A stretch of DNA of 64,000 bases from an uncultured Alphaproteobacteria bacterium (GTDB taxonomy: Bacteria > Pseudomonadota > Alphaproteobacteria > HIMB59 > GCA-002718135): positions 1-64,000 of the forward strand of contig CABYHW010000003.1 in NCBI GenBank assembly GCA_902518705.1, given 5' to 3'. Below the pieces are notes generated by a model. That model searched no databases. It saw only the letters and a list, made by a program, of their open reading frames with translations, and was not told where the DNA came from. Below are positions 35,607 to 40,718 of the stretch, one piece after another. Each line of letters opens with the position of its first letter. Positions within the stretch are counted from its first letter, which is position 1. The position numbers and the translations under genes were made by a program.

Positions 35607-35696
35607 GGAGAGATGGCTGAGCGGTTGAAAGCACTGGTCTTGAAAACCAGCAACGGGGCAACTCGTTCGTGAGTTCGAATCTCACTCTCTCCGCCA
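35607..35696 (+). tRNA. tRNA-Ser(UGA), CCA encoded
   Basis: GGAGAGA/TCTCTCC acceptor, CTGGT-CTTGAAA-ACCAG anticodon arm (anticodon TGA), long variable arm, GTTCGAAT T-loop, CCA. Confidence 0.96.
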
Positions 35697-35698
35697 TT
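35622..35698 (+). repeat. Left att-like direct repeat (3' part of tRNA-Ser)
   Basis: 77 bp repeated at 40642-40718 with 2 mismatches. Confidence 0.93.
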
Positions 35699-35749
35699 TT
35701 CAAGCATAATTTTAATAACTTTAAATAAATTTTGTGGTAAGATTTATTT

Positions 35750-36004
35750 ATGGTCAAGATTTTGAAATTTCCTAATAGAAATTCACCTGCCTCTAAAGAA
35801 AGAATGGAAGAACTACTAATAGCTAATGAAGAATTTAATAAAAAAGAAGATGAATTTGATAAAGCTCTATTTGATTTATTTAAAAAATATAAAAAAATAA
35901 GTAAGTATTTAAAATCAACGAAAAAAGAAAATAATGAACTTTTAAGAGGTTTAAGAAATAGTTTTAAATCTAAATTAGAGGATATAAAAAAGATATTAGA
36001 GTAA
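35750..36004 (+). CDS. Island hypothetical protein, coiled-coil-rich (84 aa)
   Basis: Charged helical sequence NEEFNKKEDEFDKALFDLFKKYKKISKYLKSTKKEN; overlaps next ORF start by ATGA-like junction. Confidence 0.6.
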   Translation: MVKILKFPNRNSPASKERMEELLIANEEFNKKEDEFDKALFDLFKKYKKISKYLKSTKKENNELLRGLRNSFKSKLEDIKKILE

Positions 36005-36585
36005 TGAAAAATTTTTTTAATCCTAACTCTATTGAATCCAAAAGTTTACAAAAAATTTTAAAAAGCAAGAAGAGTAAAATTTTAAAATATAGATATGAAG
36101 GTGAAACAAAAAATAAAATTCCTCATACACCAGAAAGTTTTGGAACTAAATTTTTTGAAGAACAAGATAGAAACGATTATACTGAAGCAGGCTTTCCATA
36201 TGATTTAGAAATGTTGCAAAATTATTTTACTAATACTTATGCTCAAGAATCTTTTTATTTTATGGGTCAAAGGTATGTTGAAGAGGCAAGATATATTAAT
36301 GGAGTTCCAGAAGGTGCTGTAAAGCTAACAATCGGCATTGAAGGCTTAGATTATAATCATTATTTATATTGTAATTTTAAAAATGGTTTACCTAATGGCT
36401 CAGCAATGCTCTATGAGTCTTATAAACTTTCACATGATCTTTATGAATTTGACAATGGATCAATAGTTAATGCTACTAGTTTTGATAATCTAACTGATCT
36501 TGAATTGAACAAAATAACTGATAATTGGAAGAAAAATAAAAATCTCTATAATCTTATGAAGGAAGATTTAGAGTTATATGAATGA
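36004..36585 (+). CDS. Island MORN-like protein, paralog of 37677-38291
   Basis: YRYEGETKNKIPHTPESFG, ARYINGVPEGAVKL, YLYCNFKNGLPNGSAMLYE. Confidence 0.65.
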   Translation: MKNFFNPNSIESKSLQKILKSKKSKILKYRYEGETKNKIPHTPESFGTKFFEEQDRNDYTEAGFPYDLEMLQNYFTNTYAQESFYFMGQRYVEEARYINGVPEGAVKLTIGIEGLDYNHYLYCNFKNGLPNGSAMLYESYKLSHDLYEFDNGSIVNATSFDNLTDLELNKITDNWKKNKNLYNLMKEDLELYE

Positions 36586-36613
36586 GATAAATTATTAATA
36601 ATTTTAATGTTTT

Positions 36614-37657
36614 TTGTTGTCATTATTAACACTGTTAGAAGATATTAGAATAAAACTATTTATGTATCAATTAATTAAAAGTATTGAACTTGAGCCAAGA
36701 AATAACAACGAAGGATACATTTATTTTTTTGATGATTCTTTAAAGACAGATAATATTGATTTTTTAAAGACATTTAAAAAAGGGACAGATAATAAAATTT
36801 TAAGATTTAATAGAAACTTTCAGATATTTAAAAGTTTTGGTATTGTAAGAAAAAAAGGAGTTAAATTTTTTTCAATTTCCAATAATAAAAAAGAAGTAAC
36901 AGATTTGATTATTTCAACTACTAGTTCAAAAATATCTTACAAACAAAAAATTGATATTGATGAAAGTATGAAGGAATTAATAAAATATAAAATTTTAAAT
37001 TATAAAAAATCAAAAAATGAAACATTGAATTTTATGAATGTGTTTAGGACAGAAAATATTAATGAAAAATGTAATATTTTAGACTTGATGAAAGTTAAAA
37101 CATTTTCATTAAAAATGATTGGAATTAAAGATAGAGAAGTTTCTGATAAAAATTTTTTGTTATTGGCAGAAAAGATAGGTAATAAAAATATCATAGCTAA
37201 ATTTCTTGATTCTTTAATCAGATTTGAATTTGGTGTGGCTGAAATATCACTTCAAGAAGGTAATATAGATAAGTTTTTAAATCATTGTCAATTTACGCAA
37301 GAACTAGAGTCAACAGAGTTTTACAAAGATAAAAAAATAAAATCTAATTGTAATATAAATATTAAATCGGGAAATTTGTGCATTCAGACTCTTGGTGAAA
37401 CATTTGAAATAAATATGAAACCAGGAAAATATAAAATGTATGAAATTTTTGATGAGGGTTTTAAAAATAACAAAGAAAAACAATATAAAAGAGTTAAGGA
37501 AGATGAAGAGTATGAAAAATTTAAAAAAAAATATCCTAATATGGAAATGGATGATTATGAATTAGCTATGGCATACAAGGATGGTTATGACCCATGGACC
37601 CCTGCTTTTATCCCTGAAACACCGAGCAATCATTTTCTTCTTTTATCACCCAAATAA
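36614..37657 (+). CDS. Island hypothetical protein (347 aa; start uncertain)
   Basis: Long ORF in operon orientation; no family recognised. Confidence 0.6.
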   Translation: MLSLLTLLEDIRIKLFMYQLIKSIELEPRNNNEGYIYFFDDSLKTDNIDFLKTFKKGTDNKILRFNRNFQIFKSFGIVRKKGVKFFSISNNKKEVTDLIISTTSSKISYKQKIDIDESMKELIKYKILNYKKSKNETLNFMNVFRTENINEKCNILDLMKVKTFSLKMIGIKDREVSDKNFLLLAEKIGNKNIIAKFLDSLIRFEFGVAEISLQEGNIDKFLNHCQFTQELESTEFYKDKKIKSNCNINIKSGNLCIQTLGETFEINMKPGKYKMYEIFDEGFKNNKEKQYKRVKEDEEYEKFKKKYPNMEMDDYELAMAYKDGYDPWTPAFIPETPSNHFLLLSPK

Positions 37658-37676
37658 TTAAATATGGTATCTGAGA

Positions 37677-38291
37677 ATGTTTAAAGATGACGAAAAAATT
37701 GTAATTAAGAGAATTCTTGATGACAAAGATAAGCAGTTTTTAGATTTTACATATACTGGCGATACTAAGAAAGACAACAAAACTCCACACGGTAGAGGTA
37801 ACAAAAAATTTGACTTTGAATATAAGTCTGGAATTTATTACGATTTAGAGAACATCAATTGTAGCAGACATATGGATACAAAAATATATTTTTTAAATTT
37901 AGGTTTACGAGAATATGAAAGTGCAGAATATAAAAATGGTGTAAGAAATGGAACGGCTATGATGCATATGATGGAGTATAGATCGGGTGAAGTAAGAAAT
38001 ACTTTTTATTGTTCATTTAAAAACGGTATTCCCCATGGTTACGCTCTACATCAAGGAATTTTTGATGATAATTTTAGAGAACATCTAGTTTTATATTTTG
38101 AAAAAGGAAAAATATTACACCATTTCTGGAATACAGATAAATCACGAACTAAACATTTAAAAAGATTAGAAAAAAATGATGATGGACATATCTACAGTAT
38201 TGTATCAGGACAGTTAGACGTATTTTTTACAGATGAAAGTTATATATCTCCTCAAGATAGATCGTTCACTCATAAGGATTTTAAGTTATAA
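37677..38291 (+). CDS. Island MORN-like protein, paralog of 36004-36585
   Basis: FTYTGDTKKDNKTPHGRGNKKF, AEYKNGVRNGTAMM, FYCSFKNGIPHGYALHQG. Confidence 0.68.
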   Translation: MFKDDEKIVIKRILDDKDKQFLDFTYTGDTKKDNKTPHGRGNKKFDFEYKSGIYYDLENINCSRHMDTKIYFLNLGLREYESAEYKNGVRNGTAMMHMMEYRSGEVRNTFYCSFKNGIPHGYALHQGIFDDNFREHLVLYFEKGKILHHFWNTDKSRTKHLKRLEKNDDGHIYSIVSGQLDVFFTDESYISPQDRSFTHKDFKL

Positions 38292-38303
38292 TTAAGTTAA
38301 TTT

Positions 38304-38819
38304 ATGAATATTAAAAAAATTTTAGATGAAGAGGAAGATAAACAGAAATCAATAGAGTTAGATAAAATCAAAAAAGAAGAGGAAAGAAAATCTGAGTTAG
38401 AAAAAAACAAAAAATTAATGCAAAAAGGTATTGAGGAAATATTTGATACCGTAAAGTTAAAAATCAATAATTATATTTTACAACTTAAAGATTATCCTAT
38501 TGAGTTTAACAGTCCGTCAAAAATAAATGATGACACTTTTATTTCTTGGATAATTCTTATTGTTGATAAAAAAGAAGCTGAAGACACTCAAGAGCTAGAA
38601 GTTGAATTCTATATAAGTAATTATGATAAACCAAAATATAAATTAATAACAAATAATCAAAATATTAATTTTTCACAGGATTTGTATTTACTTTCGGGAA
38701 AAATTAAAAAATTAGAAAATAAAGAATTCAATGATCTGGATAGTCTGTTTGAAAATTTTATTCAAGTTTCAAAAGAGATATTGGTTAAATTAAAAAATCA
38801 TGAAGTTGATAAACTTTAG
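38304..38819 (+). CDS. Island hypothetical protein (171 aa), charged N-terminal helix
   Basis: DEEEDKQKSIELDKIKKEEERKSELEKNKKL then mixed alpha/beta-like region. Confidence 0.6.
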   Translation: MNIKKILDEEEDKQKSIELDKIKKEEERKSELEKNKKLMQKGIEEIFDTVKLKINNYILQLKDYPIEFNSPSKINDDTFISWIILIVDKKEAEDTQELEVEFYISNYDKPKYKLITNNQNINFSQDLYLLSGKIKKLENKEFNDLDSLFENFIQVSKEILVKLKNHEVDKL

Positions 38820-38859
38820 GATCACTTTTGCTCCATTCTTTATTTACAAAAGTATTCAT

Positions 38860-40059
38860 TTATTCAAAAAAACTTAGACTTTCTTTATCAGTATCAAATA
38901 ATTCAGGACACACATTTCTTATTTTTTCTACTCTCCTCTTTTGAATAAGTATTGTTAATGGGAAGAGTGGTAAAACTTCCTCAATTTTTTTATATTTTTG
39001 TCTATTCTTATTAAATTCTTCCTCTAATTTTGCTGGTTCTGCTTTTTGCCTTCTTATATTTTCTAAATGGTCCATAATGTTCATAGATTTTGTAGTAGTT
39101 TTTTCTGCATTTATAAATTCATTTATATCTTTGAAGTAAATTTCCATGAGGACATGAGTTTCATTAATAGTATCTTGAAATATTCTATATCTTAGTTCAC
39201 TAATAAACCGTGAATATGCTCCTAAATTATTGTTATGAATATCTTCAATCTTTTTTTGAAGCTTTTTTCCTTCACTGACAAAATTCAAAAATTCTTTTTG
39301 TTTTTTATCATAAATCCAATCCCTAATTTGGTTAAAATTTGGAGCAAAATACAGTTCTTGTAAATCTGAATGAAATTCAGTCAATTCGTGAATTTGCGCT
39401 TCAATATATTCTTTTTTAATAATTTTTTTAAAAAGAGACGGGTGAATACTTAAGTCTGATTTAATTTTAAATGGAAGGTTTTTGATATTAATGTGAGATA
39501 TATCTTTTGAAGAAAAATTTAAAATTTGGAGATTACCCATATTTAAAATATTGCTGCTAGAAGTATCTTTGTTAAAAACTATTTGATCACTCTCTAGTTT
39601 TATTTCATATGTAGTATAATTATTGTTTTTGTGAGATAAATCAGCTGCATCAACATCATGATATTCCAAACCTAAGCTTTTTTTTATATTTTTTCTTTCT
39701 TCAATTTCTTTATCAGTTCTATTAACTAACAATGGATCAAGATGATAAAAAAATATTCCAATAGATGAAACTGTTTCTAGATGATCTTCTTTAAATTTTT
39801 GAATATATTTTAATTTGTTATAGCACTCTTCAAGAAATTCTCTGTATTCATCTATGTTTAGTTTGCTTTCTATTTTTATTTTACCTTCAGCTTCTAGTAA
39901 TTTTTTATTTATAAGTTCTTCATTTGATAGATTATAAACTAAATCACTAGTCTTAACCAATAAGTCGTCATTTTTTTGATTACCATTTCCATCCAAATGT
40001 TTACCAATATCTTTTTTTAAAAGTGTCAAAATGCTACTATCAATAGTTATCTCTTTCAT
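38860..40059 (-). CDS. Island hypothetical protein (399 aa)
   Basis: Long ORF, no family recognised; opposite strand to the other island operon. Confidence 0.6.
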   Translation of the reverse strand: MKEITIDSSILTLLKKDIGKHLDGNGNQKNDDLLVKTSDLVYNLSNEELINKKLLEAEGKIKIESKLNIDEYREFLEECYNKLKYIQKFKEDHLETVSSIGIFFYHLDPLLVNRTDKEIEERKNIKKSLGLEYHDVDAADLSHKNNNYTTYEIKLESDQIVFNKDTSSSNILNMGNLQILNFSSKDISHINIKNLPFKIKSDLSIHPSLFKKIIKKEYIEAQIHELTEFHSDLQELYFAPNFNQIRDWIYDKKQKEFLNFVSEGKKLQKKIEDIHNNNLGAYSRFISELRYRIFQDTINETHVLMEIYFKDINEFINAEKTTTKSMNIMDHLENIRRQKAEPAKLEEEFNKNRQKYKKIEEVLPLFPLTILIQKRRVEKIRNVCPELFDTDKESLSFFE

Positions 40060-40083
40060 CTTTTTAATTTCAAATTTGTTTTA

Positions 40084-40557
40084 TCATTGGATTTTGTTAC
40101 AGTGTCCGTAAACATAAAATATGTTTCTATACAAATTATCACTAAATTTTTCTCTAATTTGTAATTCAAAATAATTATCTAAAACTAAATTAATTTCGTA
40201 ATTATCTAAATAGCCAAAATAACTCATGGATCCTTTTTTGAAATCTGTTATCTCAATATTTTGTTCATACTTATCTTTTATAGTAATTTTATTATTATCT
40301 ACTTTTATAGTAGAAAAGAGCAAACCTTTTTCAGGTATTACATCATCATTAAAAGTACAAGTTGGAACAATTTTTCCATCTATATATTCAAGTAGAGATG
40401 CCTGGCAATATTTTTTAGCAATACAATTATAAATTTCTTCCTTTGCAAATAATGATTTGGTAGAGAAAAATAAAAAGATAACTAGAATTATTCGTACAGA
40501 TCTGTGTTTAAGGATTTTATTAATCTCCTTCATTTCTTCTTTTTTCAAATTCATCAA
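40084..40557 (-). CDS. Island hypothetical exported protein (157 aa)
   Basis: Hydrophobic segment SVRIILVIFLFFSTKSLFA followed by Cys-containing mature region. Confidence 0.6.
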   Translation of the reverse strand: MMNLKKEEMKEINKILKHRSVRIILVIFLFFSTKSLFAKEEIYNCIAKKYCQASLLEYIDGKIVPTCTFNDDVIPEKGLLFSTIKVDNNKITIKDKYEQNIEITDFKKGSMSYFGYLDNYEINLVLDNYFELQIREKFSDNLYRNIFYVYGHCNKIQ

Positions 40558-40585
40558 TTAAAGATTAATATAATTTATACCAAAT

Positions 40586-40607
40586 ATCTACACGACATCT
40601 ACACGAC
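40586..40607. repeat. Two perfect tandem copies of an 11-mer near right att-like repeat
   Basis: ATCTACACGAC-ATCTACACGAC. Confidence 0.85.
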
Positions 40608-40608
40608 A

Positions 40609-40623
40609 TGCCATTTTATGGCA
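40609..40623. repeat. Short inverted repeat next to right att-like repeat
   Basis: TGCCAT-TTT-ATGGCA. Confidence 0.6.
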
Positions 40624-40641
40624 GAAATAAAGGACAAAAAA

Positions 40642-40718
40642 CGGTTGAAAGCACCGGTCTTGAAAACCGGCAACGGGGCAACTCGTTCGTGAGTTCGAAT
40701 CTCACTCTCTCCGCCATT
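40642..40718 (+). repeat. Right att-like direct repeat (truncated tRNA-Ser copy)
   Basis: 75/77 identical to 35622-35698; lacks the 5' acceptor strand and D-arm start. Confidence 0.93.

Follow-up and report, generated by a model that had tools for sequence, protein, structure and literature searches.

An integrase-less genomic island between two tRNA-Ser copies in an uncultured alphaproteobacterium of the HIMB59 lineage

Background

The tRNA islands catalogued by Islander are defined by a tRNA gene, a fragment of it and an integrase gene (PMC4383910). Additive flexible genomic islands, for example fGI-2 of the Methylophilaceae, carry repeats of the tRNA end (PMC10872708), and the hallmark of tycheposons is a tyrosine recombinase of their own (PMC10872708 and its reference 61). 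CALINs and MITEs have been described as hitcher elements (PMC11389934). One study of HIMB59 islands dealt with phosphate and phosphonate islands, and no mention of integrases or recombinases was found in its text (PMC10734472). Integrase-less islands are usually classed as decay or overlooked, and Islander demands the integrase gene.

Here we analyse such an island in the first 64,000 nucleotides of contig CABYHW010000003.1 (assembly GCA_902518705.1), the whole stretch under analysis, called the window below. Its genome (G000; 1.16 Mb, 71% complete) was compared with about 100 relatives of the same genus. These are single-cell assemblies (or labelled as such) of uncultured Alphaproteobacteria, probably of the marine HIMB59/AEGEAN-169 group and mostly 55-90% complete, and they supply empty sites, several islands at one tRNA gene and an att signature.

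Results and discussion

The island and its cargo

The boundaries of the island are the following:
35607..35696, + strand, intact tRNA-Ser(TGA), the regenerated target gene on the attL side, allele T29-A43 (ARAGORN and allele survey)
35622..35698, + strand, left copy of a 77-bp direct repeat, from tRNA nt 16 to 2 bp past the tRNA end
40642..40718, + strand, displaced copy of the tRNA-Ser 3' part, attR side, allele C29-G43 as in empty relatives

The initial annotation had read this locus as an intact tRNA-Ser and a copy of its 3' part bracketing seven ORFs with no recombinase, and this was confirmed, ARAGORN finding the intact tRNA gene and BLAST the two repeat copies, identical at 75 of 77 positions (E 4.5e-32). 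They enclose 4,943 bp, 94% coding and tightly packed (gaps of -1 to 76 bp), in which seven intact ORFs form two convergent groups. The GC content is 24.3% against a window mean of 26.4%, an uninformative difference that lies inside the spread. The island is genuine, well bounded and recurrent. Its genes are:
35750..36004, + strand, ORF1, 84 aa, coiled-coil-like
36004..36585, + strand, ORF2, 193 aa, MORN-like, paralogue of ORF4
36662..37657, + strand, ORF3, 331 aa, start probably ATG 36662
37677..38291, + strand, ORF4, 204 aa, MORN-like beta-ribbon protein
38304..38819, + strand, ORF5, 171 aa
38860..40059, - strand, ORF6, 399 aa, mostly helical
40084..40557, - strand, ORF7, 157 aa, start 84 bp from the displaced copy

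None of the seven ORFs gave a convincing match in Pfam, PHROGs, PADLOC or NCBIfam, nor any match to a recombinase, replication or packaging family. This profile search for a recombinase had been proposed together with the initial annotation. Of that interpretation, the integrated, integrase-less island stood; the label "satellite-like" was not supported, since there is no replication or packaging gene. ORF4 matches the Pfam MORN profile weakly (E 0.095), its AlphaFold2 model is a beta-ribbon (pLDDT 70.6), and its matches in the PDB are weak ones to solved MORN proteins. The model of ORF6 reached a pLDDT of only 34. For ORF3, ATG 36662 is probably the start rather than TTG 36614, judging from its relative in G116, which is also 331 aa long and 92% identical.

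The ORF1 family is common to the islands of G086, G092, G012, G121 and G113 and occurs also in the cargo of an Int locus (described below) in G116, G101, G109 and G030. Relatives of ORF6 are confined to the islands of G012 and G113, and none of ORF5 was found. The N-terminus of ORF7 recurs in MORN-like genes that occupy the corresponding end of other islands, the remainder being divergent. In addition, an island beside tRNA-Leu(CAA) in G036 carries the same MORN-like gene families (L072 1006-1812), with a degenerate 11-bp-spaced pair, ATTACAGGTCA/ACCACAGGGCA, close to the tRNA.

A known defence system as cargo was discarded, no PADLOC match being worth keeping. A viral origin was likewise discarded: scans of IMG/VR with ORF1, ORF6, the MORN family, the fixed recombinase described below, both tRNA-Ser 3' alleles and the right arm returned nothing. 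Phage records held no relative of ORF3 or ORF6, and their best match to the tRNA-Ser was 83%.

Empty sites and turnover at tRNA-Ser(TGA)

The region slt - tRNA-Ser - sdh - mfd was resolved in about 54 genomes besides that of the window, and 49 genomes of the genus have an empty site with a single tRNA-Ser. In G027, G007 and G014 both flanks abut directly and are 94-97% identical to those of the window. Islands occupy the site in six genomes (the window genome G000, G076, G098, G086, G121 and G092), and we infer a seventh in G012, where a 2.6-kb contig starts and stops at the island ends. The island is 2.3 kb long in G076 and 1.2 kb in G098, the site of G086 holds two elements, and the cargo is mostly different from one island to another. 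No integrase was seen in the islands of the six genomes and G012, those of G092 and G012 reaching contig ends beyond which one might lie.

In a tree of the slt gene (55 rows) the seven occupied genomes need seven gains or losses, at least six of them forced by well-supported branches, and the islands therefore come and go at this tRNA. Comparison of the locus across relatives had been set beforehand as the test of the initial annotation, and the same gene block everywhere with no empty site would have counted against it. What we found was 49 empty sites and other islands with alternative cargo, which upholds the site-specific integration of an integrase-less island. The intact ORFs had been taken to speak against simple decay; this also stands, and the variable cargo argues likewise. 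Altogether, movement of the window island by site-specific recombination is strongly supported.

The second element of G086 is integrase-less too (2.35 kb; L073 6603-8996) and nested at the same tRNA-Ser, where it has left behind a 5' fragment (nt 1-42) of that tRNA, a rare type. The same 5'-fragment type occurs in the integrase-bearing G065, at tRNA-Ser(GCT). On one contig (G009:C1; L051, L197) about 82 kb separate slt from tRNA-Ser, its neighbour elsewhere, a rearrangement with its breakpoint at the tRNA. A second, partial tRNA-Ser-like site was seen near tRNA-Gly(GCC) (L194 8309-8370, L195, L196, L226, L228); it is occupied in L193, L213, L218 and L222 and contains a near-full tRNA-Ser copy in G092, G082, G085 and G080. 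The copy in G092 adjoins a sulfotransferase-like gene that is also present at the main site.

tRNA alleles and the point of strand exchange

The two mismatches between the tRNA copies together make up a single compensatory pair in the anticodon stem, which reads T29-A43 in the intact gene and C29-G43 in the displaced copy. G076 and G098 show the same arrangement as G000. Because it recurs while empty relatives are nearly all C29-G43 (the exceptions are G124 and G071), the island brought its own 3' part of the tRNA. The remaining 3' half of the tRNA-Ser also has two alleles across the genus. These alleles are most simply explained by strand exchange somewhere from nt 16, the first position of the repeat, to nt 28, immediately 5' to the anticodon loop. 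A crossover within the loop was rejected, as it needs either a pre-insertion T29-G43, present in no empty genome, or later compensatory changes.

An att end with 11-bp-spaced arm repeats

Next to the displaced copy lie the following features:
40583..40641, + strand, conserved island end adjoining the displaced copy, 59 bp, 56/59 identical in G076
40587..40608, + strand, two 11-bp direct repeats TCTACACGACA, candidate arm-type integrase sites
40609..40623, + strand, dyad TGCCATTTTATGGCA, between the arm repeats and the core

G076 keeps this 59-bp end under cargo unrelated to that of the window, and the end was not found in the remaining 100 of 102 same-genus genomes (38-bp core, up to 3 mismatches). 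A repeat pair at exactly 11 bp is present in 4/4 integrase-less tRNA-Ser ends (window, G076, G086 and G098) and in 12/16 integrase-proximal ends, counts that include some mutually related elements and a motif spotted before the first count; any other period occurred three times at most, and the background is 1.2% of 150-bp windows. In a later check, 8 of 11 more regions upstream of integrases were positive, or 7/10 among those newly examined. The version of the arm in the window and G076 differs from that of G086 and both from that of G098.

In G093 the distance from the displaced copy to the start of the integrase is 86 bp, and the arm repeats lie within it. For a cargo gene in the same orientation, the corresponding distance is 84 bp in the window, 86 bp in G086 and 97 bp in G076. 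As the cargo gene begins where the integrase of related islands would, cargo seems to have replaced the integrase, with core, arms and probably promoter retained. What is new here is that recombination arms and cargo in the integrase slot link the island to integrase-carrying islands of the same genus.

Integrase-carrying islands and candidate movers

About 25 further integrases (PF00589) were found at other loci across the genus. Several belong to small units of 5-6 kb that combine an intact tRNA, its displaced fragment and the integrase, at tRNA-Arg (G104), tRNA-Gln (G103) and tRNA-Gly (G120, G098 and G078), and the integrase island of G093, at tRNA-Gly, measures 10 kb. Two of these units (G103 and G120) have a primase-like gene along with the integrase and therefore resemble phage satellites. 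Elements of about 5.7 kb with integrase and primase in tRNA-Gln and tRNA-Gly (L249 1626-7398, L257 1681-7566) have no recognised capsid genes, and L257 includes an extra tandem integrase-less unit of 1.1 kb with a DUF4268 protein. No integrase with arm repeats matching those of the window was found in the 102 genomes, and none was at tRNA-Ser(TGA). A search of 10 genomes for serine recombinases gave none.

The window genome shows a single PF00589 protein, on a contig other than that of the island:
G000:C10:16748-17803 (L119), fixed tyrosine recombinase, 352 aa, beside a Sir2 gene

This recombinase is present in 77 of the 102 incomplete genomes and is usually their sole PF00589 protein, also in G000, G086, G092, G076 and G116. 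Since most genomes show only this one, canonical XerC and XerD seem to be absent from the genus. A complete relative of another family, G037, has two PF00589 proteins. The gene is divergent from Sir2, often accompanied by a terminase-small-subunit-like gene, and keeps one chromosomal position genus-wide (L119, L120-L137, L068, L093-L095). The hypervariable cargo beside it includes DNA methylase, Vsr-like and AIPR abortive-infection genes in some genomes.

Mobilisation in trans and its alternatives

Our preferred reading, to which we give a probability of about 60%, is that the window island is a non-autonomous member of a genus-wide set of small tRNA islands, in which cargo has replaced the integrase, the sites have been kept and mobilisation occurs in trans. 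The island has the landing signals of the genus's mobile islands and no integrase, which suggests that the enzyme is borrowed from other elements, and a tRNA-type integrase of another element is probably what moves it. The integrase gene would have been lost and its slot taken by cargo, the core and arm sites staying in place. The island would then be excised and inserted in trans by an arm-binding tRNA integrase that a different element of the same cell supplies; the likeliest such mover may be present only transiently or be missing from the incomplete assemblies. Selection on the cargo might come from the host or from elements competing with one another, and travel between cells could proceed by transduction, vesicles or natural transformation. 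Chances are about even that such islands form a standing class among the tRNA islands of the genus, with the integrase traded for cargo at the promoter-proximal slot, hitchers of arm-matched tRNA integrases in the manner of MITEs and CALINs, to which all the islands found at tRNA-Ser(TGA) belong.

The main rival, which we consider unlikely, holds that each island landed with an integrase of its own, lost it later and is now a stranded, immobile remnant. Such a history would fit the window island, whose arm repeats are kept at one end only, as well as G121 (L092), where the displaced copy is gone, and G071 and G124, which resemble deletion scars. Against it, the occupied genomes yielded no integrase, integrase pseudogene or integrase-bearing sibling at the site, the ORFs are intact, and the same integrase-free end is found in G000 and G076 with different cargo. 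Cargo could also be swapped by homologous recombination between strains through the common flanks, after a site-specific event that happened once, long ago. We regard this as improbable: the common flanks, the genes with common N-terminal starts and swapped remainders, and the ORF1, ORF3 and ORF4 relatives, about 92% identical in DNA, that G116 has in its unrelated Int locus speak for such exchange, but neither the different arm versions nor the different tRNA alleles agree with it, nor do the precise empty sites beside each occupied genome.

It is very improbable that the fixed Int-Sir2 recombinase moves the islands in trans, in an integron-like division of labour. Its wide presence, usually as the sole protein of its family, and its fixed position by variable cargo with gene families in common with the island would suit this role. 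Nevertheless, it is a weak candidate because no 11-bp arm repeats were found upstream of its gene; furthermore, there are no att-like direct repeats around its cargo, no recognised arm-binding domain and no tRNA gene at the locus. Under the preferred reading of trans mobilisation by a tRNA integrase, the 11-bp-spaced pair is an att signature by which integrase-less islands can be recognised and helper integrases assigned to them. This would reveal how small blocks of cargo are gained by streamlined ocean bacteria, and the matching of helpers becomes directly testable.

Comparison with known systems

Like the tRNA islands of Islander, the window island has a regenerated tRNA and a correctly oriented displaced fragment marking its ends, and its presence is strain-specific, with an empty site in relatives. 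It differs from them in having no integrase gene, which Islander requires, and its strand exchange maps most simply to nt 16-28. Tycheposons are similar as tRNA-targeted cargo islands of marine picoplankton, but their hallmark tyrosine recombinase is missing here. The size of about 5 kb and the integration at a tRNA recall small phage satellites (PICMI and similar), although the window island has no integrase and no primase or packaging gene of the kind that marks PICI/PICMI-like satellites.

With additive flexible islands it shares different cargo, mostly of no known function, at one tRNA gene, with tRNA 3'-end repeats as bounds, in streamlined aquatic hosts. The islands described here are mostly single units of 1-5 kb with mapped ends, empty sites and arm repeats. 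CIMEs, CALINs and MITEs resemble it in keeping recombination sites without the enzyme, att sites being kept and recombination genes absent in the window island as well, where mobilisation by a helper is our inference. The helper here would be the tRNA integrase of small islands, and no conjugation gene was seen. In behaviour, its nearest counterparts are the additive flexible islands and hitchers of the CALIN and MITE kind.
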